Assembly: GCA_015345905.1 (NCBI GenBank)
Contig: JADDTR010000004.1
Span: 930,001 to 994,000 of the forward strand
Direction: 5' to 3'
DNA: 64,000 nucleotides
From: Aotearoamyces nothofagi
Lineage: Eukaryota > Ascomycota > Leotiomycetes > Leotiales > Tympanidaceae
Of the stretch, positions 20,358 through 41,440 are shown piece by piece. The notes under the pieces were generated by a model. It saw nothing but the letters and a program-made list of their open reading frames with translations, was not told where the DNA came from and searched no databases. Within the stretch, counting starts at the first letter, position 1. The number at the start of each line of letters is the position of its first letter. The translations under genes were made by a program, and so were the position numbers.

Positions 20358-20900
20358 TTAGCAAACTCCTTTCAACCCGAATATATCATTGAACATACCC
20401 CAACGACGGAAATCCTTGACGAGACCATACCGTAGCTCTTCGCGGATCCGGAATTCCACTTCCTCCGTGACCTCCTTGTGCACCGAAAGCGGCGATAGCA
20501 CAGCTGCGAGGAAGAAAGCAATGAGAAGCCACCAATCTAGAGCACAGATGAAGCTGTACACTGCCCGCGCGGGCATCCACAACAAATAATACGCAAGCCC
20601 GCTGAGGAATATGATGAGCAAATTGACTGAGAAAGTAGCACATTGCCGGAAAGCCGCAGCGATCCGAAGAGGATTTGATGGCCAATTCCAACGAGATTCA
20701 CTTTCTGGGACTTCCTGCTGGGCGAATCTATCTGGCCATGAGCCAGGCCTGGACAGGTCATATTGGGACTGTATGAACTCGCTCAACCTGGCGGCGCTGC
20801 GGCGGCGATGCCAGGGTGGAATCGGCCTGGGCGGAATTGGACGATGGTAACGGTTTGAGTAATGATTGCCCAGCCCCAAGTGCCAGTTATTCGCCTCCAT
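20358..20900 (-). CDS. small membrane protein of unknown function
   Basis: I call 180 residues from the ATG at 20900 (MEANNWHLGLGNH). The frame stays open to 20927 but has no earlier ATG. The N-terminal half is Arg/Pro-rich (PIPPRPIPPWHRRRSAA). The C-terminal half has two hydrophobic segments, FSVNLLIIFLSGLAYYLLW and ALDWWLLIAFFLAAVLSPL, followed by a charged tail, so it is probably a two-TM protein. I do not recognise a family. A short upstream exon in another frame, with ATGs around 20950-21010, is possible, so the start is unsure. It is convergent with LSC2. Confidence 0.6.
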   Translation of the reverse strand: MEANNWHLGLGNHYSNRYHRPIPPRPIPPWHRRRSAARLSEFIQSQYDLSRPGSWPDRFAQQEVPESESRWNWPSNPLRIAAAFRQCATFSVNLLIIFLSGLAYYLLWMPARAVYSFICALDWWLLIAFFLAAVLSPLSVHKEVTEEVEFRIREELRYGLVKDFRRWGMFNDIFGLKGVC

Positions 20901-21630
20901 GGATCGCCCACGGAGAAGACTCTGCAAAGAGAGTACTGGCCTGTGGTAGGGTTGATCGTAGCTTCTGAGGCCTCCATGGACTTTATCATCTCAGCAGCCA
21001 TTGAGCCTACATTCATAGTGGTGAACCTGTGGTTTCGGATCTTCAGTCGCTGAGTTCATAAGACATTCAGAGGTCGTCCATGCAGCCTTGTTGAAACAAC
21101 CTCACGGGATAGGTCAAAGGGAAGAATTTCAACAAAGACTGCCACTGTTGCAACTCAATATCCACATCATTTAAACAAGGAAGATGCTGGTAGAAAAGTT
21201 CCACTGTGTTCTGCCTTTTGATCTTGTAGAAATACATGCACAGATGGTGAAAACGTGACGTGCATCTTATGAGTAGCTTGGAACAGGTAGACGGTGACGG
21301 AAGAAAGAAAGAGCAAAACGGTACCACCAGTATAGATGACCTAGTTCTGCAGAGAGGCGCTTCGGAGAATGTAGTAGATGTCATGGCCAAGATGATATGT
21401 ATACGTGTAGAAAGCTTGGTTGATAGAAACTGATGCGCCACCGATAATCGTCAGAATTGGCCATCGGTAGATGGTCAAATTCCGACGATTGCTCGGAATG
21501 TGACATGATTCCGGAAAGCCGCCTATATAACCCACGCTATAACCTATAGAAATATATCTATAATTTAACCTCCTAATAATTCTAGCACCATATGCCGATT
21601 AAACCATTGCTGGTTCTTACATAGCTCACA
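20901..21630. other. intergenic, possible unresolved small gene
   Basis: This contains the upstream regions of the small membrane protein gene and the MDR gene. On the minus strand, two frames at about 21190-21535 have hydrophobic stretches (YRWPILTIIGGASVSI; VLLFLSSVTVYLF) that could be exons, but I could not connect them with good splice sites. Confidence 0.4.
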
Positions 21631-22732
21631 ATGCGTGCCCTAGGTGTCCCCAGATTCGGCAAAGCCGACAGACTCGAAGTCCTGGATATTGCGAAGCCCG
21701 AAATTGTCAACGAGGACGACATCCTCGTGCATGTAAAAGCAGTCGCTCTCAATCCAGGAGATGCTATCAAAATACAGGGATACTCGCGACTGATCGAGAC
21801 AGTTAGGTATCTCTTCTTATATGCTTAGATTTACCTATATTAACCAGACCAGACTTCCTCTGATAATCGGCCATGACTATTCTGGTACTGTTGCTGCTGT
21901 AGGCACAGCAATTACTGATTTTGCACCTGGTGATGATGTCTTTGGCATGATCATGGCAGGCGGGGCTGCAGCAGAGTACTTGCTTTTGTCATCGAAGAGC
22001 AAGTACTCCATCGCCAAAAAGCCGTCATCAGTATCATTCAAAGATGCAAGTGGCCTTGCCATCGCGGCGCATACAACAGTTCAGTCTCTGGAGCGGGCAG
22101 ATGCTGAGGTCCCAGGCGGGCTCAAGGGCAAGACGGTGTTTATCCCTGCAGGGCTCGGCGGTGTTGGAAGCATAGCGCTGCAGGTCGTAAAGAATGTTTT
22201 CGGCGCCGGGAAGGTCATCACAACTGTGAGCAGCAAAAAGGTCAAACTGGTTCCAGAATTGCTCGGCCAGGGTGTCGTGGACCAGATTGTTGATTATACG
22301 ACGCAAGATGTGGCCAAGGAGATTGGGAAAGAGACGGTGGATTTCATGCTCGACACGACATTTGTCGCAATTTCGTGTATTGGAGTCCTGAAGCCGAATT
22401 CGGGGGTCTTGCTTACCATCACGGGAAAATCTGGCAAGTCGTTGGCAAAAGATTATCCGGCGGCGCCGTGGCTGCTGTTCAAGATTTTGGACATTGCTGA
22501 TGCCGTTTATAAGTGGAGGGCGGCAAGATGGAAAGTCACTTACGATCATGTGTATGTCCCAACGCTCAGTGCAGATTTGGAAAAGTTTGTAGCGTGGGTG
22601 GAGGAAGGGAAAGTCAAGGCTGTAATAGGGAGGACGGAGAGGGTGGCGGATATTGAGGCTGTAAAGGAGATGTTGGCGATGGTTGCATCGGGGAAAGGAG
22701 GAGTGGGCAGATTTGTGATTGATCTGGAATAA
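21631..22732 (+). CDS. MDR-family zinc-type alcohol dehydrogenase / quinone or enoyl reductase
   Basis: Exons are 21631-21806 and 21853-22732, giving 351 residues. The N-terminal GroES-like part has EVLDIAKPEIVNEDDILVHV and VALNPGD. The splice joins VR to LPLIIGHDYSGTVAAVG, the usual substrate-domain motif. The Rossmann part has FIPAGLGGVGSIALQVVKN. It lacks the Cys/His pattern of zinc alcohol dehydrogenases, which points to the zinc-independent quinone-oxidoreductase or trans-enoyl-reductase-like branch common beside fungal metabolic clusters. It would be an NADPH-dependent soluble enzyme; the substrate is unknown. The gene ends 78 bases from the end of the four-TM gene on the other strand. 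Confidence 0.9.
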
Positions 22733-22810
22733 GTTTTACTCGGACATATGATAACTTAGGCATCGTACTGACATTATATGTTTATATAACTAATCAATAA
22801 AGCTTTTCTA

Positions 22811-23683
22811 TTATGAACTTGGGTTAGTTCTATTATCATTAAAATCCGGCATCTCAATAGCATCTTCTTCCTTCTTCATATGCGCTGACTTCGGTCCAAA
22901 TTTATCATCATGAGAATGAGATAAAAACAGAATACATGTACTATTGCCCATCAGCATTGGCTCCCAACTGCAAGACGTGGAGATAGCAGCTATAACTAAC
23001 TTACCTTGCCCACGTAGCAACAAGGCCTGGCCACAGAATTACAACCGCTGCAACAGCACGACCATTATGCCTATAGACTATTGGCAAGTCAGAGATGATT
23101 CCAGAAGATCACAAATATAACATACTCAAAGGTGGCTTATGCCTCAATGAAGCTAATCTAAGCGCCTCAGCCTTAGCAACGCCATCAATATGCGCGCTCC
23201 TCGTCGCTACGATATACGTCAAGGCAATAGCATCGGCAAGTATCATGCATGAAACGGTGACTGCAAAAATCTTCCATGCAATTCGTACGGCTCTGCTCTC
23301 ATGTCGTTCAGGCCAGAATAGGTCGAAGAAGAACGCCGCGCCGAAAATGGTGGCGACCGCAATACCGACGAAGATATTGTAGGAGCCGATGCCGACGAAA
23401 TCGTTGTTGTATTCAATGGCGAGGCTGTTGAGAGACTGGAAGAAGGATTCTTGGGATACGTAATCTGGAGGTATACTTTAGCATACGCAGCGGAGAATTC
23501 AAGAAGAGCCGTACCAGATAACGCAGCTGTCCCTAAGGACTCGGAAACAACACATAGGATCATGGCGATCTGATAAACCACCATCTTTGTCCGACGAAGA
23601 TGATATACTGTGTTGAACATGTAGGAGCCCTTGAATTTCGCCCATTGCATCTCATGGAGATCGAGTCCCCAAATGGCTACCAT
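22811..23683 (-). CDS. orphan four-TM integral membrane protein
   Basis: Exons on the minus strand are 23515-23683, 23126-23464, 23005-23077 and 22811-22967, giving 245 residues with all phases consistent. Likely TM segments are MVVYQIAMILCVVSESLGTA, SYNIFVGIAVATIFGAAFFF, IFAVTVSCMILADAIALTYI and AVAAVVILWPGLVATWAS. The short cytosolic-type tail is rich in His, Asp and Lys (SHSHDDKFG, MKKEEDAIEMPDFNDN). I recognise no family and no catalytic motif. The position between an MDR enzyme and an esterase suggests a role in the same accessory neighbourhood, but that is only a guess. Confidence 0.72.
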
Positions 23684-24498
23684 CTTGTGCTATAATGAAT
23701 GTATCTTACAAGAGATGTTGAAGAGAAGGCGTTGGAAGGAAAAAAGTACCTTTAGATGAATGCTTGGCTTGTCGGAAAGCCGTGGGATAGTAAATGACGT
23801 CAAGCCATGTAGTTTTTCGCATTTCCGTGCGGAAACCATAAAACCCCAGCTACTTACTTAGTAATCGAGGGATCTTCATCCCTGACGTTATTCCCTGATA
23901 TCCCTAAGTCGAGAACGACATGTTACTCGAGGAGAAGGACAGGAACCCCGGGACGACGGCGGTGGGCGGTGACGGTGAGAGTTACCCGTCACAGCAGGAG
24001 CCGGGTCGCAGTTGTCACAAACAATGTCATCCAGCATCAAGATTTAGGATCCACGGGTCAATATGTATTTTCAACATTCCAACAGTGTGGATGGCCAAAG
24101 TGCCTCGATAACGAGTAACTTGCTGTCGGTATTTAAATGTAGTCTCGGAGGCGTTGCCGGCGGCAGCGGCAGCAGCCGGCACGCTTTCCCACACCAAGCG
24201 TTCCATGCCTCATCTCCAAGATCTTCATTTTCACAGCTACAAGGTTGGATATGATGACAGACTCTTAGCTCGCGCTCCGTATTTCGTTTTCCTTTGCTTA
24301 CATCCCGCTGAAAGCGCGCCCTCGAATACAGATCTACGCCCACCTTTTAGCGTTTCTCATCTCCTTATCATACATAGTAGCTCACCCTTCAGAGGCCCAG
24401 TATTAGAATTAAGGCCGTTCAGAAATCGATCTCTTACGAAAATAATACACTGTATTAGAAGACATTGATAACTCTCATTTCAATCTCTCGCTGGGAAG
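23684..24498. promoter_or_regulatory. divergent intergenic
   Basis: This 815-base upstream region lies between the four-TM gene (minus) and the hydrolase (plus). No clear gene; a GC-rich block lies at 23935-24010. Confidence 0.5.
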
Positions 24499-25660
24499 AT
24501 GTCATCACGAAAGATCCACCAGCCAATCCACCCCTCGGTCCTCCCCAAACTCGATCCCGAATACGTTGACTTCCACAACACCCAGCTCCAGTACATTCAG
24601 CCGTCGGAAACATTTCAATGGGATCCGGCCGTTCGCAATGTCCCATCTGTCATGTCGCTCGGTGGCTCAGCACCCGTCGAAGTCGGCAGCATCAAGGACC
24701 ACGACCTTCCTAATTGTCAAGTTCGTACATTCACGCCTAAAGGAGAGCGGCCGGAAGATGGCTGGCCGGTCTGTATCTGGTTCCATGGCGGTATGTTGCG
24801 TAATTCAACTTATTTATTATTGAAGTCTAGACTAATGATTTTGCCCTATCTAGGAGGCTGGACACTGGGAGACTTGAATAGTGAAAATAGTATCTGCACT
24901 GTCTTGTGCCAACGTAAGCCCCCTTTGGATTCTCTCAAAATCATTTCCTGCTAACTTGGCTGTGTAGGAGCATCTTGCGTGGTAGTAAATGTCAACTATC
25001 GTCACGCACCCGAGCACCCATTTCCAGCAGCTGTTGATGACGCATTTGAAGCACTACAATGGGTCGTAACGCACGGAGTCGCCAAACTCGGAATCAATCC
25101 TTCAAAAATAGCAGTCGGCGGAAGTTCCGCGTAAGTAACCCTCTTCCTCGCATCAGGCAAAAAAGACTGACCAGATCCCCAGCGGCGGAAACATATCTGC
25201 AGTTCTGACCCTCAAAGCCGCCTCTGCATCTCCTCCGATTCCGCTAACCTTACAGCTTCTGATTGTCCCAGTGATTGACAACACCGCTGCCGCTGAGACT
25301 ATCTGGGCGGCAAACTGCAATGCGCCCTGGCTCACTCCCTCGCGCATGACGTGGTATCGTCGCATGTATCTTCCCAACGAAGCGGATTGGAGCTTGTGGA
25401 CCGCATCGCCAAATCTCGCGCCTAGCGAATTAGTCGCCAAGTCTCCCAAGACCTGGATTGGAGTCGCGGAGCAAGACCTCCTTGCTCCTGAGGGTGTGGC
25501 GTATGGAAGGCTGTTGAGAAGGACGGGTGTTGAGACTCAGATCAAGGTTTATGAAGGCTCGACGCACTCAATCCTTGCTCTTGATGGGATTTTGAGTATT
25601 GGAAAGCGTCTTGTAGCTGATGCGGCCGAGCAACTTGCTGAAGCTTTTGGTACTTTATAG
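24499..25660 (+). CDS. alpha/beta-hydrolase fold-3 (HSL-type) esterase
   Basis: Exons are 24499-24790, 24854-24913, 24968-25130 and 25183-25660, giving 330 residues. The oxyanion-hole motif HGGG is built across the first intron (WFHG, then GGWTLGDL). The hormone-sensitive-lipase signature VNYRHAPEHPFPAAVDD follows. The nucleophile elbow GGSSAGG, with Ser171, is completed across the third intron. The acid is likely Asp in AEQDLLAPEG and the catalytic His is in YEGSTHSIL. There is no signal peptide, so it is intracellular. Such enzymes cleave short-chain esters, lactones or aryl esters; the natural substrate is not readable from sequence. It is convergent with the Zn2Cys6 regulator, 217 bases apart. 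Confidence 0.95.
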
Positions 25661-25877
25661 GTTATAGAATTATTTTAGATGATTTCGTGCAATATATAGA
25701 ACCGTGAATCTATGTCTCAATAACCTACATCGGCTGCATGGCTTAGAGTTTTCTTTAATATATAAAAAACTCGACCTTGACGCCATCTTCGTGAAGCATC
25801 CAATTTCGTAAAGCATCCAAAGTCCTCCCATAACCGATCTAAAAAGAAGCACCCTTCAACGCCAGCCAATATCAAAT

Positions 25878-28733
25878 TTACTGCCGATCCCAATCATCAA
25901 AAACTTCATATTGTACCTCTCCCTGCAGGAAGGCCGTAAGTTCAGCCTCAAAGCTGTCCATCTGCAGCGCATTACCGAAAGGACCAAACTGTGGTAACTG
26001 ATTTGTCGCATCTTTTGTAATAGGTGGAACTCGAGATCCTACATTGTACACGTTTGCAGGCTCTGGTATGATAGGAGCATTGAGCAACGCTGTGGGACCT
26101 CCAGAGCTAATAGACCCCGGTATATGGCGTTGTCGAGGAGCGCCATGACTGCCTCGGCTCGTTACCTCGGTACCTCTATGATTTGAACCGACCTGAAAAG
26201 ATATTAGAAAAGCTACTAGCTTGTAACAGGAAACATCAAGATGGTAGGAGACTGACTGGGAAGACGGGCAAGCGTTCCAGAGAGGTTTCGCCATAGCCTG
26301 GTTGAGCGTTTGACTCCAATATGGGGACTGCTACTTTACGCAGGGCTTGCTGCCATTTTGAGGCCATTGGCCATGCGTACTGAAGGTCTGTAAGTGCCTT
26401 AAGAGAGCTTTGGAAAATTGTTTCTGCCTGTGGTGCTAGCTGAGGACAGACTGTTTTATTACAGGTCAGCAAATTGTAATGGAAGTAGTCTCTCTTACCT
26501 TCATAGATAATACATACGCTGTGGTGTTTTCCAGAGATAAGATGCTAAAGAACCGCAGATATAAACGCAGAAGACCTTTTAAAAATTTGTTAGTTGATAT
26601 GCCTATACTCCTGAAATATATCAAAAGTAGGTTTTTCTCTTACAATAATAGCAGGGAAACCTTCCTCACGAGAGCGAAGAGGCAAATATGCATTGATTTG
26701 TTCATGGAGGCCAAGCACATTCTCGAACAACTCATTTGCCATGTTTTCCCAAAACCCAGGAGGTGCTCCATCACTGACTTCTGATGTGTCCTGTGATGCA
26801 GCAATGATTCTGATGAGGCCATTAGTGAAATTGTATGAACTTAGACTTCACCTAACTCACTCTTGGAGATAAATACGGCGTACCACAATGTTACTTAACC
26901 GCAGTACCATGACAATAGCTAAGTATGCCTATGAGATTATTTTAGATTGTGGTAACTCGCACAAGACCTGAAAACTTACAAGATCTAAAGACTCTGCTTT
27001 GTATCCACGTAGATTTCGGATTGACCACCGATGCCGCGCCGGAAGATCCTGTTCCCATCGATGAAGAGCGTTTGATAACTGTCTGTATTCGCTCACGCTC
27101 TCCCAAGGTTTAGCAGTTGCGCCTGTTAACTCACGTTCACTACGACACGCTCGACGAGCTACTTGACCCCATAGATTATGCGCTTGAATGAGGCTGGCAA
27201 AGAGTGACCGGTTCGGTGTAGACACTAGTGATGGGTTTGCTGCTGCTGCTTGTGTGCCAAATAGTACGGCACGTTCTCTAGGTATCATACCAAAGGCAAA
27301 GTCACCCTCATCACAAGGTAACTTGGTCGTGATGTCGCTAAGAGCGAAAGAATACGGAGTGCTATACCCCGAATGGAGATTATTCTGACCTGGACAACGT
27401 TAAACCTTGCTAGAATTTAAGGCAATATTTAATCTTACTCTCAATCATCCAAAAAGTACGTCTCGCCATTTCAGAATCAACTATGTCATCTGCTGTGGCA
27501 TCGACGGGTAAGCGATATGTTTCTTCTCGGTGCAAACAAAGAATGCTAGCCACTATAGACCCATCAGTATTAGCACAATAGCTATGGACCGAGGGGCCAC
27601 ATACTTGTGACTGCGATACCCATGTGCATCTTCAATGTTGTTCAGTCAGCGCAACCAAAATTATATACCGACGAGGAGCAAAGACATACGGCACTGCGAT
27701 CTTTGTCGCCGTTGCCCCATTCAGCAATTCCTAGTAAGAAAAATGCTTGTGTGCGATCCAAAGTTGGTCTATACATTTCTTCCGGTACGAGTTCAGCAGC
27801 TCTACTCATGAAGTATTCAGTTGCCTTGGCACCTCCTTCATATCTTTGTACCAAGCTCGGCGTAAAGCGAGCGGAAACACTAAGAATACCCAATAGCAAA
27901 AACACGCTGACAGACTCATAGTCTTTTGCTAGGCGTTCTAAAAATATAGCTTTGGGTATGAAGCCTTGGATATTTAGTTTGAATACTACATGGTTCCAGT
28001 ATACCCAACTTACCTAACTGAAAGTATGATGTACTAAATACTTTGCAACCCTGAACGACTTCTTCGTATGGAGGCAGAAGATCTCTTTGGGATGCATCTC
28101 TTTGGGGGCTCGTTGTATTGGAAACGGCAGGAGATGTTATGGCATGGTCAGACCCAGATGCTGCTGGGACAGTACGATATCTTTTTACATGATATAATTA
28201 ATTATTAATAGCTCGTGAGGATGAGTCAAACAGGACAAACCTTTTGTCTTGGTCGGATCTATGTGCAGGAGTAGTTCGTGGTCGCCGAAACTGGAAGTAG
28301 AAGATTTAGTACCAAATACAGGAACCAGATAGTTCTTGTTGCACACTTCTCGGTCTTCATCCTTTGCACCTCGTGGAGGAAATCTGCTGCGAGTCACGTG
28401 AATACGTGCTCTACAAGAACTGCTGAATGGGTACGAACGAACCATTCTGCCGCAATTGCTGGACCTGCTTTCCGGCAACCGAAGCAGGGAGGCAACGCAT
28501 TGTCATGCCTACATTTGCTACGAAGACGGCGGCACCTGGCACCCACAAACATGTCAGCAAGGTCGACTTGATCTTTCAGCCTCAATGGGAGAGCGGCGCA
28601 GGCACCTTTTGCAAGCCACAGAAGCTCTCTTGACCTTATCCGCAGCGTCGCGGGGTGGACCCGCGGGGCGCGAAAGAGGATGCCACTGACCTGCCGACGC
28701 GGCATCGGGCGGCAGGTCCATTTCCATGTCCAT
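25878..28733 (-). CDS. Zn2Cys6 fungal-specific transcription factor
   Basis: Fourteen exons on the minus strand: 28606-28733, 28443-28535, 28347-28386, 28241-28290, 28014-28180, 27690-27964, 27607-27631, 27439-27552, 26980-27389, 26861-26928, 26644-26809, 26518-26575, 26257-26450 and 25878-26192. They give 700 residues, with every phase matching. The zinc cluster is spread over the first three exons: CKRC, LRSKC, LPPCFGC, and a sixth Cys whose TGC codon is assembled across an intron just before RFPPRGAKDEDRE. A linker follows, then the fungal_trans middle homology region (LLPPYEEVVQGCKVFSTSYF, ARRTFWMIESQNNLHSGYS, SLDLAYLAIVMVLRLSN). It is a nuclear DNA-binding activator or repressor. It is divergent from the P450 reductase with 573 bases between, so a local-regulator role is plausible but unproven. 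Confidence 0.92.
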
Positions 28734-29306
28734 TGCAGTTGCAGGTGCAGCTGCACTTACAGTGGGCGGATAGATCTGCGATATACTCTGCCGGTCGCTG
28801 TGGAAGAAAGACGGAGTTGACAGAACGACGTTCACAGGACGTTGCCGGTCGGCAAAGTCGCGGCGCCGGCCTCCGGTTGACAATGGGCGGCGCCGTGGTA
28901 ATCAGGTCAGTGCCGCATCTTATTGGCCATCCTGCGCCGGCAGCTCACTATCAGTGCGCCGTGCCAGGCCTGGTCCACTTTCCAGGCCCCGGCACCCGCT
29001 ACTTACTATGAGAGCCGCATGCCCCGATGGCACGACTTCTCGTCCGAAGATACGGAGACATGCTGTGCGGTTGCGACTGTCTCTACAACTACAATGGCCA
29101 CATAGTGCCTTACGGAGAGCTCTAAGAAGCCCCTGGCAAGGAGTCCTTTGGGAAGAATGATTAGTACATCCGGGCGTGCTAAGACTTCCTTTAAAACATC
29201 CGTTCCAGTGAGACGGTCTGTCACTTTGACGTCCGAGTACTATTCCAAAAGGCCCTCCTTTAGGCAATCCGAACGTCTTTGAGCCCGAAAGTGACGCCGC
29301 GATTCA
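28734..29306. promoter_or_regulatory. divergent promoter between Zn2Cys6 regulator and P450 reductase
   Basis: This GC-rich 573-base region separates the two start codons. The frame of the regulator stays open upstream of its ATG to about 28883, without an ATG. Possible CGG-type half sites occur (28841-28905), but none forms a convincing operator. Confidence 0.5.
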
Positions 29307-31699
29307 ATGCTGACCCTTTCGGATCTTGAGCTGACCGTCCTGGCTGTTGTTCTGGCCATTACTGCAGCTTTCCTTTACTACCCATCCTTCCAGAAGGTGC
29401 CCTTTTGGAACAAAAGCAAGAATGTAGGAGGTGTTACGGCCTTGGCTGGAGGGGGCAGTGGTAAAGACTTTGTGGAGGCCATGCAGAAGACAGTAAGCTG
29501 GTCTACCATGTTCCAGCATAGAAACACCAACTCACAGGTTCAATAGGGAAAGAAGCTCGTATTTTTCTATGGCTCCCAAACTGGTACTGCGTAAGTTATA
29601 AAGCTATGAAAGGACCTAACAATCTCACGAGAGACTGACAGTTGTATGTCGAATTTAGTGAAGATTATGCAACGCGGCTTGCAAAAGAGGCAAAATCACG
29701 ATATGGTCTGTCATCGCTTGTATGCGATCCTCAAGAGTAGGTGGCAGAATTTCCCGTTATTCTAAAATCAAAGTTCTAATGTTATTTAAAAGATATGATT
29801 TCAACGTCCTCGATCAGGTCCCTAGCGATTCATTAGTTTTCTTCATTATCGCTACTTATGGCGAGGGTGAGCCAACTGATAACGCAGTTGGATTGATTGA
29901 CTTTTTGAAAGCGGATAAACTTGAGTTATCCAACGGTGGTACTTCTTTGCCAAATTTGAATTACGTCGTCTTCTCTCTCGGCAATAGCACATATGAGGAC
30001 TTTTGTGCAACTGGACGATTTGTCGCTCAACGTCTTCATCATGCTGGCGCAACCATAGTTGGTCGCGCAGGTGAAGGGGACGATGACAAGGCCATAGAAG
30101 AAGACTATCTAGCATGGAAAGATGAAATGTGGAAAGAGGTGGAGAAAAGGATGGGATGGGAAGAAGGAACGGGTGCAGGCGTTCCAGACTTTGAAGTCAC
30201 AGAACTAGGACCTGCTCATGATAAAAGAAAGGTATATCTCGGGGAACTGTCCCATCAAGCTTTAGTAGGTTCTCGAGGGGTCCATGACTTCAAGAACCCA
30301 TTTATATCTCCAGTTGCCAGAGTGAAAGAGCTCTTCCAAGATGGAGACCGAAATTGCGTGTCCGTCGAGTTTGATATAACGAACTCAGGTATGAAATATC
30401 AAACAGGCGATCACGTTGGTGTTTGGCCGCTCAACCCAGACCGAGAGGTTGAGCGTTTTCTGCGTGTCCTTCAGTTGGATTCAAAGCGGGACCAGGCAAT
30501 AGACGTCACTTCACTTGACCCAGCACTTGCCAAAGTCTCCTTCCCTGCGCCGACGACCTACGACAGCATCTTCCGGTATTACTTAGATATCTCGCAGCTT
30601 TCATCACGTCAAGCCATTCATTCTTTAGCCAAATTCGCCCCAACGGAAAAGGCTAGAGCAATTCTCGAGAAGCTGGGTACAGATAGGGATTATTACCACT
30701 CCGTCGTCGCCGAGAGAGGTCTCAGACTTTCCGAAGTACTCGTCCTAGCGGCTGGAGACTCACTGACGGCCGATCCGACCACTGCCAAATACACGCCTTG
30801 GAATATCCCATTTGAGCATATAATCTCCTGCATTTCCCGTCTGCAGCCTCGATACTATTCAATTTCCTCCTCCTCACGACTATATCCAAACTCCATCCAC
30901 ATCACCGTGGTTGTCGTAAAATTCAAGCCATCCCCGTCCGCGAAGAACATCTACGGACTAGGATCCAACTACCTCCTCAACCTCAAGAAAGCTACCACTG
31001 GCGAGATCGCCTCGGAAGGTGTGGAATCTCCCATCTACACCATCGACGGACCCCGGGGCAAATACAAAACCGCAAAACCCTACGCGGTTCCCATACACAC
31101 CCGCCTCTCCAAATTCCGACTACCTAAAAGCGTCAAGATACCCCTCATCATGATCGGACCCGGCACCGGCGTCGCGCCTTTCCGCGCCTTCATCCAAGAG
31201 CGCGTCGCTCTCGCCCGACGAGCCAAAGCCACCAAGGGGCCCGACGCACTCAAAGACTGGGCGACGATGGATCTCTTCTACGGGTGCCGGCGCTCCGACT
31301 GGGATTTCCTGTATAAGGACGAGTGGGCAGAATATGCGAAGGAGCTGGACGGGAAGTTCAGACTCCACGTTGCACTGTCCCGAGAGCCGGGACAGAAGAA
31401 GAAGTATGTGCAGCAACTTATCGAGGAGCAGGGCGAGACGGTTGTGGAGTCGCTTGTCCAGAAGAAAGGTATGTGCTCTCGAATATCCTGCGGGTTGGGT
31501 TGTCTCTCTTTTGCTGACGGCGATCTGTTGAATAGGTTATCTGTACATCTGCGGCGATGCGAAACACATGGCTCGCGAGGTCGAGGCCACGCTAGAATCG
31601 GTGATTGGTAAATCGACGGGCGGGGGACAGGCTGAAGGCGCGAAGGAGTTGAAGATTCTGAAGGATCGGAAAAGAATCATGTTGGATGTATGGTCTTAG
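29307..31699 (+). CDS. NADPH-cytochrome P450 reductase
   Basis: Exons are 29307-29492, 29547-29590, 29659-29736, 29793-31468 and 31536-31699, giving 715 residues. The N-terminal anchor LELTVLAVVLAITAAFLYY would place it in the ER membrane. The FMN domain has FYGSQTGTAEDYATRLA (joined over an intron), IIATYGEGEPTDNA and YVVFSLGNSTYEDFC. The FAD domain has PRYYSISSSS and IGPGTGVAPFRAFIQER. The NADPH domain has LFYGCRRSDWDFLY and LYICGDAKHMAREVE, with the FAD-stacking Trp at the end, DVWS. It passes electrons from NADPH to microsomal P450s. The N-terminus does not look like the housekeeping fungal CPR start I know, so it may be an additional, pathway-linked copy; that is inference. It is tail-to-tail with a P450. 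Confidence 0.95.
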
Positions 31700-32012
31700 G
31701 ATAAGATATGGATCTAGAACTAGACTTTACGAGTTCCTTTAATTACAATTTACATGCTCGAATACCCATCTTCGATGACGAGAAATAATGAGGAACCCCA
31801 TTTCAGCATTCAGTATCGCGTAAATATATGTTCTCCTCGACGACTCGTGCACTCAACATTAATATGGTAATCTAAGATGTGTAGCATTTACTATCGAGAC
31901 GATTTTAAATTTCTGCTATGGAGAGATCCTTCAGAACAGTACAGTGTACTGACTTTCCGTTATTACCTAATATAGATTCGAGATGCTTAACACATTAATA
32001 CATTATCCCTTG
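31700..32012. other. convergent 3' region
   Basis: An AT-rich region between the P450 reductase and the P450. No gene. Confidence 0.55.
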
Positions 32013-33623
32013 TCACAGCGAGTCCGACACCAAATCTTCCGCCAGGCGTGACCGAGGTGTCATAACACAAGGGAAATGTTCCGGATGACTATACCGACAA
32101 GAAATTAGCATGGATTCGACAAACCCGGATATGTGAGGAGTTTCATACCTCGTAAGACCAGCTGTCAGTTCCACATCCGGCGTAATCTCCTTCCCATCAG
32201 GCCCGATTGCCTTTGTGATATTGAGGGTAGCAAGCATGGTGACTGCGACGAACCACACGCTCGCTTCTGCTAGATGACGACCAGGACAGATTCTCCGACC
32301 AAAGCCGAATTGCCCGATTGGGAAGGGCTCGCCAGCTCCACCTTGGGATTGTGGGGTGAAGCGATCTGGATTGAAGACGTCCGGGTTCTGGTATGTATCT
32401 TCGTCGTGGGTCATGGCGAGGGCGTTTGCGTAGACGAAAGATCCTTTGGGTATAAACATGCCGTTGTAGACGTCGTCCTCGAGTGACTTGTGTGGCACAC
32501 CAACCGGCGAGACCGGACCCCATCTGAGAGTTTCTTGTACGATGAAGTCAATGTAGGGAAGAGAAGGACGATCGTTGAAGTCTGGGAGTCGATCATGTCC
32601 GACAACCGAGTCGATCTCATCTTGAGCCTTCTTCTGGATTTCAGGATGCAGAACCATATTAAGAATGAAGACTACTAAAGTTGACCAAGTAGTGTCTTGC
32701 CCAGCAGCGTAAATTGCTCCGGCTGCTCCCTTAATATCATCCGAGTTGAACTCGATCGGCTCTCCTCTTTCAGCTTTGAGAGCGTTATTTTCTAACAGAG
32801 TATGGATAAATGATGGCTGGGCTGTTCCATCTTTCATTTCCTGCTCGACTGCTGCAAAAGGCGCATTATGGATTTGTTGAATGGCCCATTTCCAATCCCG
32901 GGCAAATTTGAGTGACCACGATCTAGCAAGCCAATTCGGCAGATGCTTAATGAATGGGAAAAAATCAACCACAGTTCCAGCAGGTGCACCTCCATGGCCC
33001 AAAGCATAAGATGCGTCAATGGCCATCTGGATATAGGGATCATTGTCATCGTTGATGTTTACTCCAAATCCAATACCTAGGACGATAGCAGTCGCAAATC
33101 TCCTCATCAGACGCTCCCACTCGTTTGGTGCCTTCATGATCCCACCAATGAGTTGGTGAGTCTCGCGCTCTTGGAGATCTTGATACTGAACGCAATTAGG
33201 CTTTGTAAAAGAGCCCTGGATAAGTTTTCGGTGCATTTGAAAACGTGGACCCCATCGTAGAAAAGTCAACGTCATGCCCCAGCCCATTACTTCAAACAAC
33301 ACAAAACGTGGTCTGTCACAATAATTTGATCCACGCTTATCCAACAGGTCTACGGCTGCTTGAACGCTGTTCAGGACCACAACTGGCTGGCCTAATATAT
33401 TGAAGTACAGGACATCCGATCCATACTCTTTTGACCATTTTGCGTAGGCAATTTCTGGCTTGCCAGACGGGACGACACGCAGATGTCCAATAATTGGCTC
33501 TCCTGGAGGGCCGGGTGGTAAGGGATATGGAGTGGACTTGGTAAAGAGCAGAGTTGAAGGGATTTTCCAAAGTACAACGGCGAGGAGCAGACAGACAACA
33601 GTCTCAAGAGCGGATAGAGCCAT
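32013..33623 (-). CDS. cytochrome P450, OrdA-like
   Basis: Exons on the minus strand are 32149-33623 and 32013-32088, giving 516 residues. The N-terminus has a TM anchor (TVVCLLLAVVLWKIP) and the proline hinge YPLPPGPPGEPIIGH. Diagnostic motifs are the I-helix AAGQDTTWS, ExxR in QETLRWGP and the heme loop FGFGRRICPGRHLAE. The body (RPRFVLFEVMGWGMTLTFLR) resembles fungal P450s annotated as O-methylsterigmatocystin-oxidoreductase-like (CYP64/CYP620 type). The 60-base intron 32089-32148 contains no stop and keeps frame, but removing it gives the family C-terminus GLTSHPEHFPC. It is probably an ER monooxygenase using the neighbouring reductase; the substrate is unknown. Confidence 0.94.
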   Translation of the reverse strand: MALSALETVVCLLLAVVLWKIPSTLLFTKSTPYPLPPGPPGEPIIGHLRVVPSGKPEIAYAKWSKEYGSDVLYFNILGQPVVVLNSVQAAVDLLDKRGSNYCDRPRFVLFEVMGWGMTLTFLRWGPRFQMHRKLIQGSFTKPNCVQYQDLQERETHQLIGGIMKAPNEWERLMRRFATAIVLGIGFGVNINDDNDPYIQMAIDASYALGHGGAPAGTVVDFFPFIKHLPNWLARSWSLKFARDWKWAIQQIHNAPFAAVEQEMKDGTAQPSFIHTLLENNALKAERGEPIEFNSDDIKGAAGAIYAAGQDTTWSTLVVFILNMVLHPEIQKKAQDEIDSVVGHDRLPDFNDRPSLPYIDFIVQETLRWGPVSPVGVPHKSLEDDVYNGMFIPKGSFVYANALAMTHDEDTYQNPDVFNPDRFTPQSQGGAGEPFPIGQFGFGRRICPGRHLAEASVWFVAVTMLATLNITKAIGPDGKEITPDVELTAGLTRYETPHISGFVESMLISCRYSHPEHFPCVMTPRSRLAEDLVSDSL

Positions 33624-34565
33624 TGCCTCTGGCCCAAGTGATGTTCGTGGTCGATGTTGCGTGGTATGGTACGTGAGCCAGTTTGTGACGGAGGGACGTA
33701 GCAGCTGGGGTCAGGATGTCACGGCTGAAATGTAGATTCCATGTGAGTAGCCGGTTGGTACGGCATGTCGATGTCAGTGAAGATCCACCATAATAGCATT
33801 GTATCAAACGGAGACCAGCAGGAGATGTATTGCTAATCAGGGCGTATCGTGGTGTCGTGATGGCGGAGTCGCGGTGTGGTGATGTGCTTGCTCAGATAAG
33901 GAGGGCTTATCTTATCGCCGTGCGGTGCAATGGAATGGGCGCGAGTGGAGGGCAGTTGCCGGCCGGCAAGGAAGCCTGGGGGGCGGAGCAGAGGGCAGCT
34001 CGCAGGCCCATCCTGCCGTGAAATGGGGGGCTGTAGGGCCTGTAACAGCCTGTAACAGCCTATAACTACATGCCTATAACAGCCTACAACAGCCTGTAAC
34101 AGCCTGTAACTACATGCCTACAACAGCCTACAACAGCCTACAACAACAGCCTACAACGGCTCCCACAGGGGCCTGCTCGGGGCATGGGGCTCCACCGTAC
34201 CGTGCGAACAATCCCCCATCCCAGCAGCAACATTCGCCGTGCCGGCTTGCTTCCACCTCCCTCTCCCGCAACCTTGCGCGGTAGATCACAGACGCACAGC
34301 AGTATGCCATGTCTACCACCTCTATCACCTCACGGCAGCAGTGCCGGCAGCCTCATCATGGATCCTGATAGCCAGCTAGTGATTGCGATGGCAATCTAGA
34401 TCTGGATCTCTACAGTCTCTTCCGGCAGGCAGCTCAAGCTCTTCCACAGCAGCTCCGCCGCCACCGTACAGTTGCCTCTTTCTTATTTCTCAAGTCGCCC
34501 TCAGATCTCAAACTGTCATCTCATCTTCTTCATAGAATTCCGTACTTTCTTCCGCCTCTCCCAAC
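33624..34565. promoter_or_regulatory. divergent promoter between P450 and homogentisate dioxygenase
   Basis: This 942-base region separates two start codons on opposite strands. It includes a G-rich block (33930-34035) and a tandem repeat at 34038-34158. It may be a shared control region. Confidence 0.55.
34038..34158. repeat. imperfect 10-11-bp tandem repeat (CCTRYAACAG type)
   Basis: At least ten copies of CCTGTAACAG or CCTACAACAG are arranged in two higher-order blocks, each including TACATGCCTA. It lies in the P450/dioxygenase promoter. Confidence 0.88.
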
Positions 34566-36073
34566 ATGGTCGCTGCAACATTTGGCGCGAGTGCGCAGGC
34601 CTCATTCTCAACGGCACCGACACTAGAAGACCCATATCGTTACCAGGTCGGATTTGGAAATCGATTCGCGACAGAGGCCATCCCTGGCACCCTTCCACTT
34701 GCCCGCAACACACCTCAGAAGTGCAAATACGACCTCTATTCAGAGCAGTTGAACGGCTCGCCATTTATCTCGTCTCGAGCCACTTTACAACATGCCTGGT
34801 TCTATCGAATACGCCCATCGGTAGCAACCGGCGGACTCAGTAAACTTACGCACAATCCTGATATCGAGGCAAACTTCTCCCTGAGCAATCCTAGAGTACA
34901 GTATGTTCCGACCCAGGTTGCCTGGGATCCATTCACGATCCCGTCATCTCCAGAGGCGGTCGACTTCATAGATGGGTTGAAGACAATCGGTGGCCAAGGA
35001 GACCCAACTCTGAACGAGGGATTAGCGGTTCACATATATGCCGCAAACACCTCGATGGGAAATAGAGCATACTGCAGCAACGATGGCGATATGTTGATCC
35101 TGCCCCAGCAAGGTCGTCTAGACATCCAGACCGAGTATGGGCACATCATGGCCCGCCCCGGAGAGTTAGTCGTGATCCAGGCTGGAATCCGGTTCAAGGT
35201 CACTCTCCCAGACGGCCCGGTGCGAGGATACATCCAAGAAGTTTTCGGCAGTCATTACGAGCTTCCTGAACTTGGCCCGGTAGGATCCAATGGCATGGCT
35301 CTGCCACGGGATTTCGAAATCCCCGTCGCGTCGTTCGACATAGACCAGTCGCCGTGGGAGGTCGTGTACAAGCTCGCGGGCGAGCTCTACAGCTGCAAGC
35401 AGAACCACACGCCCTTCGACGTCGTCGCGTGGCACGGCACCTACGCGCCGTACAAGTACGCCATCGAGAAGTTCGTCAGCTACGGCTGCGTCGACAAGGA
35501 CCAGCCCGACCCCACCATCTCCTGCATCCTGCTCGCCAAGTCCAAGATCCCCGGCATCTCCATCTGCGAGTTCCTGGCCTTCACGCCCAAGTGGAACGTC
35601 ACGTCAAACACCTTCCGCCCGCCATACTACCACCGCAACATGGCTTCCGAGGTCATGGGCCTCTTGTACGGGAAGTACGGCGGCAGCAGCCATGTCCTGG
35701 AGCCCGGCGGGCTGAGCTACGAGGCGAGCTTCATGCCCCACGGCGAAACGTACGACACTTTCAAGCAGGCTTCGACAGTCGAGCTCGCACCACAGCGCGT
35801 CTGCGAAGGCACCATCGCATTCATGTTCCACATCAGCGTCCAGTTCTCCCTCACCGATTTTGCGCTCCAGCGCTCCGGCGTGCTACACCGTAAGTCTCGT
35901 CTGCGAACATGCCAGCCCCGTATCCCCCCTCTCCCCAGCTTGCTAACTCCATACCAGTATCCCCGGATAATCAATGGGACGACGTGCAGGGCCACTTCCT
36001 CGATCACCTCGACGAGATAAACCATGATCTGAAAGCAGCCGGTCTGCCAGCGCTGGGTCGCGGCACCGTATAG
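34566..36073 (+). CDS. hmgA: homogentisate 1,2-dioxygenase
   Basis: Exons are 34566-35889 and 35958-36073, giving 479 residues, somewhat longer than the ~445-450 usual. The N-terminus DPYRYQVGFGNRFATEAIPG is the family start. Iron ligands are visible with the same spacing as in the human enzyme: His356 in YYHRN, Glu362 in ASEVMG and His392 in MPHGETYD. LIQPQQG-like and GYIQEVFGSHYELPELGPVG segments complete the cupin fold. It opens the homogentisate ring to maleylacetoacetate with O2, in phenylalanine, tyrosine and phenylacetate breakdown. Its usual partners (fumarylacetoacetase, maleylacetoacetate isomerase) are not in the window. It is divergent from the P450. Confidence 0.96.
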
Positions 36074-36756
36074 AGGCCAGGGCCCGCTTAGAGATCAGGA
36101 GCCCGTCGGAAGTTTATATACTTAGAGAGGCCTGCCAGAGCCGTTTTGCTGGGAGCTGTTACTCGTGGAGTAGTCATAGCATTCGAGGGGACCGTGTTTC
36201 ATAGAACCTGCGGACTGTATATACAACCATACCATATAATGAGGGATAATGAGCAATTCCAAAATTTATCTAGTTGAGATTCTTCTATACCTCCTGGCCG
36301 TCCTACCTACCATATGGACAGGACAGGACACATTACCTAGCCGTCTCACGTATCTAGAATCACGCAGTGCGTCTTGCTACACCCATTGGATCCCGTCACG
36401 CCCAATGCAGCCTACCGAGGCGAGCACGCTGGCAACAGTCGAGCTTCTCACGCCGCGGCACCTCCTCTGTCTCGAAAAGCACGTCACTCTATATGAACTT
36501 CAGGGCCTGAACGCGAGCATGTGAACGTTGAATCATTTGATAAATAAACATCCCGTCTTGAGACTCGGGTTTTTCTATTCTGCATGCAGGTGCTTGGTCC
36601 AAGCGTATATATATATATAGTAGGTAGTAAACAATTAAACAAGAAACAGCCGTCGAAGAAAGGAACAAAGAGAAGAAAAGGAAAAAAAAAAAAAAAAAAC
36701 CACCCAGCTCTCTCCTTTGCCGAGAGCAAGAAACAACCAAAAAAAAAATTAAACAT
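36074..36756. other. convergent intergenic, no gene seen
   Basis: This region contains a short TA-repeat near 36607-36620 and a poly-A run near 36680-36700. No gene. Confidence 0.55.
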
Positions 36757-38467
36757 CTACAAGTGTCCCCTGAGCCGGATCTCCAGATACCGCAGCGGGA
36801 TGTACAAGAGGGAGGTGACGCAGAAGGCCATCTCGAACCCGATGTCGCCCGTCTTCTCGGCGATGGGCCCGATGTACCAGTTCTCGTACATGCAAGGCAC
36901 GACCAGCCCGAACGAGGCGAAGCTGGCGACGAGGGCCGCGGCGCCCGAGGGGAGCTCGCTGGCGATGTTCCAGCTCGAGTGCCTGTACGAGGAGAAGTCC
37001 TTGTTGCGGAACACGACGTGCTCCATGAGGACCGCGGCGATGAAGGCCCCCGACCAGTATCCGATGAAGCCGATGAAGTTCTCGAGGGAATCGAAGAAGG
37101 ACACGGCCGCCTTGATGCTGACCGGGATGACCACGGCCGTGACGGCGATGGCGAACAGGGCTCGGGGAACCCGGGTGAGGACTGGGAGTAGCATCTGGAT
37201 GTTCAGGGATACAGAGTAGAGCGAGGCGCTGGTGTTGCCAAGAGGCGACATGGCGAGCAGGAAGACAACGAACTTGCCGAAGCCACCTGCGGACTCAAGC
37301 ATGGCCGCGAGCACTCCGCCGACGGATTCGCTTTCATATCCGGCTGTCCATGAAGGCACGTTCCCGACTGCTCCCCCGATTGCGGCACCGAGAACCAGTA
37401 GAAGCACCGAGGGTATTAATATTCCAGCATATGTATACCAGAAAATGCGCCATCTGGTCGTGGTTAGAAGGTGGACTGCATATGCAACATTGCGACGAGA
37501 ACTTACGAGGACACCTCAGGGCGCATATATGTTGAAAAGTCTGCTGCGAGACCGGTGTATGGAAGGAAGAACCCAGCAATCAGGGCGCCAAAAGAGATGA
37601 CTGTACTGGCTTCTGCCGGGATAGTCTCGACTTGCTGGCTCAGATGTTTCCCTCCACAGCCTGTTGCAATGAGGATGGCGATAAAAGCGGGTATCCAACT
37701 CCAGCGTTCAAAGTAGTGGATGATCTTGAAACCACAGAAGGATAGCAAAAGTGTGAGGATACCAAGCACCACGATGCCGACGTTAACACTCAGGTTTCCA
37801 TCACTTATTGCGGACAGTGTTTGTCCTCCAATGATACATCCGATCAATATAAATCCAGTGACGGTGGCCATATTCAGTAAGACCGGGATGTAGATGCCGT
37901 ATAATCTGCTCGGCGGTTAGTAGGTGTCCAGTACACATTTTCAAGGAAGAAGTCACTCACCCGAATGTAAATCGTGCCTGGATCAATTGTCGAAGTCCAG
38001 TCTTGGGACCAAAGGTACAGAAGTACGCCACTGGCACGATGGTGAGGGCAGAGAAGAATAGGATAACCAGAGACGCATCCCGCAGGCTGAGGCCGTAGGA
38101 AAAGGTCCCAACCATCCCAGTAGAGAGCCTAGCATAGTATTAGCAACCCTCATCCATCTTACGGGCAAGCAATCGGAAGCACGTACGGAAGAGTGTTGAT
38201 ACTCATCGCCAGCCACATGGAGAAAACGTTGATGTAGCGAGAGTTCGTCCTCTCCTCCACAGGGATCGGGAGAATGCCTCGGATCTCGACGCCCCAGTGC
38301 GACAGCCTCCTCCAGAAGGCCCTGGCCCTGCGAGGCAGGATCTCCCTCTCCGACGGCGACTCGGCGGCGAGGTCGACGACATCGGGGACCGCGAGGATCC
38401 CCTTCTCGGCGTCGACGACAGACTCGGCGCTCCTCTTGCCAGAGGCGGTCTCGGGGGCAGAATGCAT
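36757..38467 (-). CDS. NCS1-family nucleobase permease (Fcy2-like)
   Basis: Exons on the minus strand are 38187-38467, 37961-38128, 37507-37905 and 36757-37453, giving 514 residues with all phases consistent. The hydrophilic N-terminus ends in RLSHWGVEIRGILPIPVEER, the hallmark start of fungal purine-cytosine permeases. Next come NVFSMWLAMSINTLPLSTGM, FGPKTGLRQLIQARFTFG, and TGLAADFSTYMRPEVSSWRIFWYTY. About twelve TM helices can be counted. These plasma-membrane symporters take up cytosine, purines or related N-heterocycles with H+. The specific substrate here is not readable. Its presence next to an isochorismatase-fold amidohydrolase suggests uptake and degradation of an N-containing compound (inference). 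Confidence 0.93.
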
Positions 38468-39476
38468 GGCGGCGAGGTGGTGATGCAGCAGTCAGACAGA
38501 CGGACACCGTGGCGCGCTGCTTGTGGTTGTGACGGGAGGAGATGCCAGGCTCTGATGCTCGGGGCTGGGGAGCATCTTTCATAGAGTCATACACCGGCCT
38601 GGGCTTTCGCCTAGCCGGTCTAGTGACGCTGGCCGTCTCCGCAAAAAAATAGAGATAATCGGTAATCGGCCATATCTTATCTCTGCTGAGGGCGCGCACC
38701 GGGGATGCCGAACGGCAAACGGCCCCCTTCGACAGCTATCTCGACGTTTATACATCTCGACGCCGTCCTCCTGCGGCCGCGCCGGCCAATCGCCGCATGG
38801 CCATTGATAAGATAATGATCCGAGATCGCGATGTGTCAAGCGTCCAGGGGAGGAAGTCCAGGTTGCCCAGGATTGCGCTCCACTGCCGGCCGGCTCCTGC
38901 CTGCCGGGACTCTGCGCCGCGCCCCCAATCTCGCTTACCTGATGGCATCACGTGCGCTCGAGGAAAGATAAACTACTGCCGGGTTGCTTATATTGTGGGC
39001 TCGTATTGTGGAGCAGATGGTAGTCTGTTCACCCATTCTTAGCAGCTACAGTTTCTGCCCCTACCCGGCCTCTTATCACTCTCCGACGGGAGAGTTTGCT
39101 TGTCTAGGATGCGGCAATCTTCCCCACCTGTTCGACCTAGATGTTGGCTTATAACATAATGACACGATGTTATGAGAATTGAAAGCATTTGGAAGCGTGT
39201 AGATAAGCCTTTTTGGTGCTGGAAAGGCTGCGATGATTTGTTTAGTGTTGTCTCTAGATATTCCTATCTATAGCCTCTATAGGTCTAGTTACTACAAGTC
39301 TCGAATGTGAAAGTGAGAGCTTTTCTACATTTGATGATCGGATTAGCTCATATAAACAACACTTATTACAACAATAATGTACAAAGCCGGCACTGAGTGT
39401 TTTTGTAACGTGTTCCACAGTCTATCTGGTCCAAGGACAACAAGAACAAGGTTTCGTAATCATTAATCTTGACGTT
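38468..39476. other. intergenic, no gene seen
   Basis: This contains the promoter of the permease and the 3' region of the amidohydrolase (both minus strand). GC-rich up to about 38960, then AT-rich. Confidence 0.5.
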
Positions 39477-40203
39477 TCATTGCCACCCAGCCTTCAGTTT
39501 CTCCACAGCCTCCTCCTCGGCCACCACATCCGCATACTTGGCGTTCAGATCAAACAGATTCGAGTTTTGGATCTCTGGAGATCTGTCTCCGCAAGCCGAA
39601 CCCACAACCTGTAAGATCCTGTCAATAACAAGCACACGCGTCCAGCTAAAACGACCGACTTACCATGGGACGAAATCCATGCTGCATAGCATCCAGCGTC
39701 GTAGCCCTCACACAGCCACTCGTACTCACTCCACAGATGACCAACGTGTCGACATTCAGGACCTGAAGTTCCGACGCCAGCGACGTGCCGAAGAAGGCAC
39801 TCGCATACTTCTTCACGACGAGCGTGTCCGCATCACGCGGCTCCAAGCCGTCCACCCAGGCAGCGAGGCCCCTGCCATCGCCCTTCTGCCACACGTTCAG
39901 CACCTTGGCCTTCTTCCAGAACAGGCCGGCGTCAGCCATCTCGGGATGCGTGTACTCGACCGTGCTCCAGACGACGGGCACGTGGCCGGCGCGCGCGGCA
40001 GCCAGCAGGCGGCGCATGGAATCGGGAGATGCGGCGGCGTTCGGGTTCGCGCTGATATCGAGGGGCGAGCCGGCGGTCCAGTAGGCGGTGCAGACGTCAA
40101 TGAGGATGAGGGCCGGCCGCGAGCCCCATCCCATCTTGTTCGCGAAGCCTGAGCTTTGGTAGCTCGACGAGGCGGGGTGGGTTTCGTGGGCGAGCGCAGA
40201 CAT
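39477..40203 (-). CDS. isochorismatase-fold cysteine hydrolase (amidohydrolase type)
   Basis: Exons on the minus strand are 39664-40203 and 39477-39608, giving 223 residues. The catalytic triad of the family is visible: Asp36 in ALILIDVCTAYW, a Lys at 131-132 in LVVKKYASAFFGT and Cys164 in VSTSGCVRATTLDAM. The spacing resembles N-carbamoylsarcosine amidohydrolase rather than isochorismatase proper. Such enzymes hydrolyse C-N bonds (nicotinamide, carbamoylsarcosine, ureidoacrylate). It is cytosolic, without a signal peptide. It lies downstream of the NCS1 permease on the same strand, 1.0 kb away, which would fit uptake and breakdown of an N-heterocycle; the substrate is not proven. Confidence 0.93.
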
Positions 40204-41440
40204 GGTGGAGGTGTGACGGCGGAGGCGGAGGCGGGCTATATGGGAGAAGATGGCATCGTAGGAAGATTCGTCTACTGTGGGGATATAAAAGCAGTTGACT
40301 TACATATACCGCTGCGATGCTCTGTGGTTACCTTATCATCGCTAGCCGCATCGAATACTTCCCCATGCTCAGGGAGGGGATGGGATGGGACGAAACAGAA
40401 ACCGGCCGGCAAATTGGTGGGGAGGGCTACCGAGTGGCCCAGGCCACAGGCCTCAGGCACGGATAACAGCATGAGGGTGACCTCATACCCGATAAGGAAG
40501 CGAGAGGGCTGATCGTCAGCGATAGCGCACCTCCGGGCGATAAGATACCGCCCGCGTGGTCGTGCAGCTGCCCTGGCCTTGAGAAAGTCAACAATGGGTA
40601 GAGTTGTCTTGGCAGATTCCCGCCAAGTCTTGTGCCAAGTCCACTACGACGGGTACATCAAACCCTCAATCGCCTTGCGAACTCGCATTCGGTAATACCT
40701 GACGTGTTGCTGTATCGTTGCAGAAATCTTCTCGCAGGTGCTGTAGACATGCCCACGACAAACATCGCTGCAAGCAAGTCTAGTGAACGCAACTCGCCCG
40801 CATACGTTCGACGGGCTCAGCTGAGCGGCCAGAAGGTGGCGATTATAGGTAGGGGGGCGCTATTACCGCATACGGCAAAGAAATGTTCGCCGTAAAAAAA
40901 CAACTCGAGCCCGTTGAGACTCAGATGTTACCTGGTGCCCGATGTCCAGCAGGACTGTCAAGTAAATGCTGGCCGACGAGGAATTCGTCTCTTTGCCTAC
41001 TCGTCGTTCGCAGGGTTCTATACTATGTATGCGTGTGTGTTTCGCGATTCATCTCTGGCGATAACCCAAAATGATAAATGCCATGTTCCGGGTTTTAAGA
41101 TTCATAATTAGGGGGGAGTTGGACGTGGGATGACGGAATGGCGACGAAGGAGGCGCTGGGTATACATACCAATGCGGCCTGGATAGTAGCAGTATGTTGG
41201 CAACATGTTGGCAACACGTAGTAGTATAGTATTCGCATATGCAGTATTATTCGGAAGAATATATTCGGTAGAACAGTTGCGCCTCAGCTGATATGGCAAC
41301 ATTCAGCGATCCGAAGAAGGGCGATTCTGTGGCAACTCCTACACCAGATAGTACAGTCAGTACCTTTGCAGCCTCAGGTACATACCGAAGTCTACCAAGG
41401 TCCTGTCCCGCGGGACGAGCAGGAAGAGAAAAGGAGAAGG

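Follow-up and report, generated by a model that had tools for sequence, protein, structure and literature searches.

Genes of a probable fungal ring-opening pathway were analyzed in a window of 64,000 nucleotides from Aotearoamyces nothofagi (contig C4:930001-994000; the genome comprises 25.5 Mb on 55 contigs; positions without a contig name refer to this window, i.e. the whole stretch analyzed), the gene content of which is fungal. Nine intact genes at 21631-40203 were recovered by splice-aware gene models, among them those for a Zn2Cys6-type regulator, a cytochrome P450 (P450), an NADPH-cytochrome P450 reductase (CPR), a divergent ring-cleavage dioxygenase of the homogentisate dioxygenase (HGD) family, an esterase, a permease and an amidohydrolase. 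We consider it reasonably probable that they constitute a co-regulated cluster for the hydroxylation of an aromatic compound, the cleavage of a para-hydroquinone other than homogentisate and the hydrolysis of the resulting product; the evidence comes from the dioxygenase itself and from a palindrome in the promoters of the gene set.

Phylogenetic position and active site of the dioxygenase

The dioxygenase gene (34566-36073, plus strand, two exons) is one of two HGD-family genes of the genome, the other being located on contig C26. Its product contains the HgmA_N and HgmA_C domains (PF20510, 350.6 bits; PF04209, 138.7 bits); scored against TIGR01015, the curated homogentisate-dioxygenase equivalog with a cut-off of 510.75 bits, it reached 501.6 bits (approximately 9 bits under the cut-off) versus 688.9 bits for the C26 copy, the splicing of which was confirmed. 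The window dioxygenase is 42% identical to this C26 HmgA and 49% identical to the protein of PDB entry 9pz4. In a tree of 13 rows, the window dioxygenase and 9pz4 formed a clade (100/99) apart from the remaining 11 rows, which include the human, bacterial and own C26 HmgA. As judged from these sequence comparisons, the window dioxygenase is a paralog distinct from the HmgA of the genome. The first-pass annotation had named it homogentisate 1,2-dioxygenase: the broad gene families proposed there for the locus were borne out by Pfam for eight of the nine genes, while this particular name was too specific in view of the TIGR01015 score, and the notion that the gene is the homogentisate dioxygenase of the fungus has to be abandoned in favor of the true hmgA on C26.

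According to the alignment, the Fe(II) ligands His335, Glu341 and His371 are all retained in the window dioxygenase, while three other positions are replaced (H292Q, K353S and H365E). Lys353 and His365 are found in all 11 rows besides 9pz4 and the window protein; His292 is found in 9pz4 and in all six printed rows of those 11, with Gln at the corresponding position of the window dioxygenase. Lys353 of HmgA is presumed by us to contact the substrate carboxylate. The second-shell residues His292 and His365 have been proposed to help deprotonate the substrate, as stated in a review (PMC4019311). Because the iron ligands are kept while His292, His365 and Lys353 are replaced, the substrate of the window dioxygenase is likely to be altered. 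The sister sequence 9pz4 (named homogentisate 1,2-dioxygenase) also lacks His365 and Lys353; unlike the window dioxygenase, it has kept His292 and possesses a Gly aligned to Tyr350.

The true hmgA (C26:51665-53190) is situated approximately 6 kb from an HPPD-like glyoxalase-fold gene with a P450 nearby (C26:44747-53190), and fahA is located on contig C11 (region 308023-313084) with a P450 gene piece beside it; no fahA was present on the contig of the window. The homogentisate route therefore exists without the window gene, and since the window dioxygenase is not the HmgA of the genome and fahA lies on another contig, tyrosine or phenylacetate would be an unlikely substrate of the cluster. The tyrosine-degradation genes of this fungus are dispersed, with hmgA on C26 and fahA on C11; besides the P450 piece, the latter has a Zn2Cys6-like frame (read by eye) as a neighbor, and this grouping is possibly a phenylacetate-type arrangement. 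A confident maiA was not found in the genome, where introns may hide it (best match 33.1 bits versus a cut-off of 171.05).

A shared palindrome in the cluster promoters

The everted palindrome TTNCCGN2CGGNAA is perfect in three divergent promoters of the gene set: as TTTCCG-TG-CGGAAA (TTTCCGTGCGGAAA) at 23822-23835 between the genes of an orphan four-transmembrane (4TM) protein and the esterase, as TTGCCG-GT-CGGCAA (TTGCCGGTCGGCAA) at 28842-28855 between those of the regulator and the CPR (109 bp before the regulator ATG), and as TTGCCG-GC-CGGCAA (TTGCCGGCCGGCAA) at 33956-33969 between those of the P450 and the dioxygenase. A copy with one outer mismatch (ATGCCG-AA-CGGCAA, 38705-38718) is positioned 238 bp before the ATG of the permease gene. 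Upstream of the isochorismatase-type amidohydrolase gene there is only a weak site without a full palindrome, namely a CCGN2CGG core at 40402-40409, 199 bp before the gene, in which a single half site (CGGCAA) is good. The P450/dioxygenase promoter additionally harbors a tandem array of approximately 10-base units (GCCTGTAACA / GCCTACAACA) at 34038-34157, approximately 70 bp from the palindrome.

Genome-wide, TTNCCGN2CGGNAA has 17 exact sites, three of which fall into the cluster; by proportion, approximately 0.01 would be expected in 18.6 kb. The word TTGCCGGNCGGCAA occurs three times in 25.5 Mb, twice in the regulator/CPR and P450/dioxygenase promoters and once on contig C9. When up to one mismatch was permitted, TTGCCGN2CGGCAA gave 40 genome sites including three in the cluster, and the shorter TGCCGN2CGGCA gave 23, with four of them clustered within 17 kb here and three of these four upstream of cluster genes (permease site at 38706). 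No exact TTNCCGN2CGGNAA was present on the contigs C26 (hmgA) and C20 (the other CPR gene of the genome); C11 has a single such site, more than 450 kb away from fahA. The six 5' regions (5,250 bp) contained seven CCGN2CGG cores and three perfect 6-N2-6 palindromes with this core; 1000 dinucleotide shuffles of the same regions yielded means of 1.2 cores and 0.014 perfect palindromes, and none of the 1000 reached the observed values. The gene spans and 3' regions (15,156 bp) were devoid of CCGN2CGG cores. In an enumeration of palindromes with six-base half sites and spacers of 0-15 in the six 5' regions, TTGCCG-N2 ranked first with a score of 9; the best score among 400 shuffled sets was 7, reached three times.

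We read the palindrome as a rare sequence that is at background level elsewhere and concentrated in the cluster promoters. The sequence supports joint regulation of most of the gene set, and the co-regulated cluster put forward in the first-pass annotation is upheld to this extent, i.e. for the three divergent promoters and, through the one-mismatch copy, for the permease gene. The claim does not extend to the gene of the medium-chain-type (MDR) oxidoreductase at the left end, which is without a site and whose membership in the regulon is not supported, and the isochorismatase-type gene has no more than a half site.

The putative regulator

The regulator gene (25878-28733, minus strand) encodes a fungal transcription factor with a six-cysteine Zn2Cys6-type N-terminus and a Fungal_trans domain. 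The zinc cluster (reading ACKRCRRLRSKC..PPCFGCRKADREVC; pattern C-x2-C-x6-C-x8-C-x2-C-x7-C) was recovered by placing two introns with weak, non-consensus donors, these being the first two of the gene (28355-28605; donors GTGCCT and GTCCAG). PF00172 matched at the right place with 16.9 bits (E 0.0072), i.e. below its cut-off of 21, and PF04082 (Fungal_trans) matched above its cut-off; because of the former result, the Zn2Cys6 identification is based on the cysteines and PF04082. As a consequence of the non-consensus donors, the zinc cluster may escape automatic annotation. Zn2Cys6 proteins are known to target everted CCG/CGG repeats, and the regulator encoded in the cluster is for this reason the natural candidate for binding the palindrome.

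Further proteins and borders of the locus

The CPR gene (29307-31699, plus strand, five exons) is the second of its kind in the genome, the C20 copy being 48% identical; its product is complete, with an N-terminal hydrophobic anchor and the flavodoxin, FAD and NADPH domains. The adjacent P450 gene (32013-33623, minus strand, two exons) encodes a protein with an anchor and with intact I-helix, ExxR and heme motifs (AGQDT, ETLR and FGFGRRICPG). Its best PDB matches are chains named CYP1, CYP17 and CYP2, and in consequence no CYP family is claimed. A paralog of this P450 is present in pieces at C35:12660-14643 (29-60% identity for the individual pieces); two of the pieces contain stops, which perhaps reflect introns.

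The HSL-type esterase (Abhydrolase_3; 24499-25660, plus strand) has HGGG and GSSAG motifs and is encoded by four exons (24499-24790, 24854-24913, 24968-25130 and 25183-25660); the gene shares the locus and the palindrome with that of the dioxygenase at a distance of 8.9 kb. The isochorismatase-fold hydrolase (39477-40203, minus strand, two exons) was assigned to the N-carbamoylsarcosine amidohydrolase group: it scored 136.6 bits to N-carbamoylsarcosine amidohydrolase (26st), 105.1 bits to 4l07 and 99.4 bits to 3ot4, versus approximately 40 bits or less to pyrazinamidase/nicotinamidase and RutB chains. We take 4l07 and 3ot4 to be maleamate amidases. Asp, Lys and Cys positions are aligned with this group and are presumably the catalytic residues. 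The permease (36757-38467, minus strand, four exons) belongs to NCS1, a family of importers; PF02133 matched above and TIGR00800 below the respective cut-off, and no PDB chain matched at E 0.001.

At the left end, the MDR oxidoreductase gene (quinone-oxidoreductase type; 21631-22732, plus strand, two exons; PF08240 and PF13602) is followed by that of the orphan 4TM protein (22811-23683, minus strand, four exons), for which Kyte-Doolittle analysis indicated approximately 4-5 hydrophobic segments and which is the exception among the nine genes in having no Pfam match. Among the genes that Pfam could name, the closest to the left is of the succinyl-CoA-ligase type (approximately 18.4-19.9 kb) and the closest to the right belongs to the LicD family (43.7-44.7 kb); an unnamed frame of 210 codons (20358-20990) is interposed between the former and the MDR gene. 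The gene set and borders of the first-pass annotation were confirmed: between 21631 and 40203 none of the nine genes is missing or disrupted, and no housekeeping-type gene model interrupts them.

Proposed pathway and alternative explanations

In the proposed pathway, the Zn2Cys6-type regulator would recognize TTNCCGN2CGGNAA and would thereby switch on its own gene together with that of the CPR, the P450 and dioxygenase genes, the 4TM and esterase genes, and the permease gene. The NCS1 permease would import the substrate or a related compound, and the P450, supplied with electrons by the adjacent CPR, would oxygenate an aromatic compound to a para-dihydroxylated ring, as its family membership suggests. 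The HGD-family dioxygenase would then cleave this ring beside a substituent that is not carboxymethyl, and the esterase, possibly also the amidohydrolase, would hydrolyze the ring-opened product in the manner of OmeA after MhdA in Aspergillus niger.

Several points weigh against this reading. The motif was first spotted by eye in two promoters, so that its choice depended on these two sites, and the enumeration used regions and a half length that were fixed once it had been seen; the longest word common to these two promoters is unremarkable. The genome-wide counts are no higher than those of reversed controls (23 versus 26 for TGCCGN2CGGCA, 17 versus 21 for TTNCCGN2CGGNAA, and 40 versus 37 for TTGCCGN2CGGCAA with up to one mismatch). 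Outside of 21-41.5 kb, the window has nine CCGN2CGG cores and one perfect 6-N2-6 palindrome, the latter at 20565 inside an open frame, and the fourth TGCCGN2CGGCA site (45841-45852) lies probably within coding sequence on the minus strand; the gene concerned seems to resemble an acyl-CoA thioesterase, and no Pfam match was found in the part of it that was scanned. The 614 bp upstream of the MDR gene contain no CCGN2CGG. Furthermore, the CPR may serve many P450s, and the altered specificity of the dioxygenase is argued from residues only.

The closest studied precedent that we found is, by analogy, the MhdA/OmeA system of A. niger. According to the respective report (PMC8336404), mhdA (NRRL3_10111) had been annotated as homogentisate dioxygenase, yet its product is distinct from HmgA (50.8% identity to the A. 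nidulans protein) and cleaves methoxyhydroquinone, and the adjoining omeA (NRRL3_10110) encodes a 4-oxo-monomethyl adipate esterase. Both systems would be catabolic and combine a non-HmgA dioxygenase of the HGD family with a carboxylesterase in the same neighborhood; in contrast to A. niger, which employs VhyA, a FAD-dependent hydroxylase whose locus number is distant, the window locus unites P450, CPR, permease and regulator genes that share the promoter palindrome. The proposed order of oxygenation, para-hydroquinone cleavage and hydrolysis resembles the logic of the A. niger system. A special case of the preferred pathway, to which we give limited weight, would be worded as follows: the dioxygenase would be an MhdA ortholog that cleaves an alkoxy-hydroquinone (methoxyhydroquinone from guaiacyl lignin units) to a methyl ester, the HSL esterase would perform the OmeA step, and the P450/CPR pair would replace the flavin hydroxylase. 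The joining of a non-HmgA paralog and an esterase gene under one palindrome is consistent with it; however, at 42% identity to its own HmgA the window copy may lie further out than MhdA, and the permease and the amidohydrolase have no obvious fit to lignin phenols.

To a comparable, limited degree the locus might be composed of two or three unrelated adjacent modules, i.e. P450/CPR/dioxygenase, permease and amidohydrolase acting on a ureide or a nucleobase, and MDR/4TM/esterase. In fungal genomes, accessory genes commonly lie next to each other, and the missing site of the MDR gene and the mere half site of the amidohydrolase gene would be in agreement with such a composition; the palindrome, however, spans the 4TM/esterase, regulator/CPR and P450/dioxygenase promoters and, with one mismatch, that of the permease.

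A biosynthetic or tailoring cluster of secondary metabolism, in which the dioxygenase would open a ring of the product, appears rather unlikely: the P450 with its neighboring CPR and the pathway-type regulator would suit it, but a Pfam scan of 15 distinct window proteins detected neither a polyketide synthase nor a peptide synthetase nor a terpene cyclase among them, and a permease of an importer family is present. The permease and the amidohydrolase leave room for an N-containing substrate. The HGD-family enzyme could also have shifted to an N-containing para-dihydroxy ring (e.g. 2,5-dihydroxypyridine), in which case the cluster would correspond to the lower nicotinate pathway of bacteria but be assembled from other components; we regard this as improbable. 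In this model, NCS1 would import an N-heterocycle, P450/CPR would hydroxylate it, the cupin dioxygenase would cleave it, the alpha/beta-hydrolase would deacylate and the amidohydrolase of the maleamate-amidase group would release ammonia. A single gene of the Amdase family, presumably a family of maleate isomerases, was found at C13:636514-637101 (PF17645, 57.1 bits), unlinked to the cluster.

A second homogentisate dioxygenase for phenylacetate or tyrosine breakdown is very unlikely, as the intact HgmA domains and Fe ligands and the TIGR01015 score just 9 bits below the cut-off are opposed by that same equivalog cut-off, the replacement of Lys353, His365 and His292, the true hmgA near the HPPD-like gene and the absence of fahA from the contig of the window. 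The phenylacetate route runs through CYP504 hydroxylases and is comparable in that a P450 feeds an HGD-family enzyme; it differs in that the P450 beside fahA is on C11 and not at the window locus. The tyrosine-degradation cluster, given as hppD-hmgX-hmgA-fahA-maiA-hmgR in PMC3914699, likewise contains an HGD-family gene within a regulated fungal catabolic cluster, but its other genes were not recognized at the window locus, and hmgA and fahA of this genome are on other contigs.

Implications

Family-based annotation would name the window dioxygenase homogentisate 1,2-dioxygenase and would thus point readers to tyrosine breakdown, whereas our results speak for a ring-cleaving enzyme that belongs to a different clade and is grouped with a P450, a second CPR and a regulator for which a candidate DNA site can be named. 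Eight central ring-opening intermediates are known in fungi, two of which have been characterized only lately, according to a database paper (PMC13094099). The locus of A. nothofagi is a compact candidate for another or a variant ring-opening route, with one regulator, one palindrome, approximately seven target genes and one dioxygenase that can be assayed.

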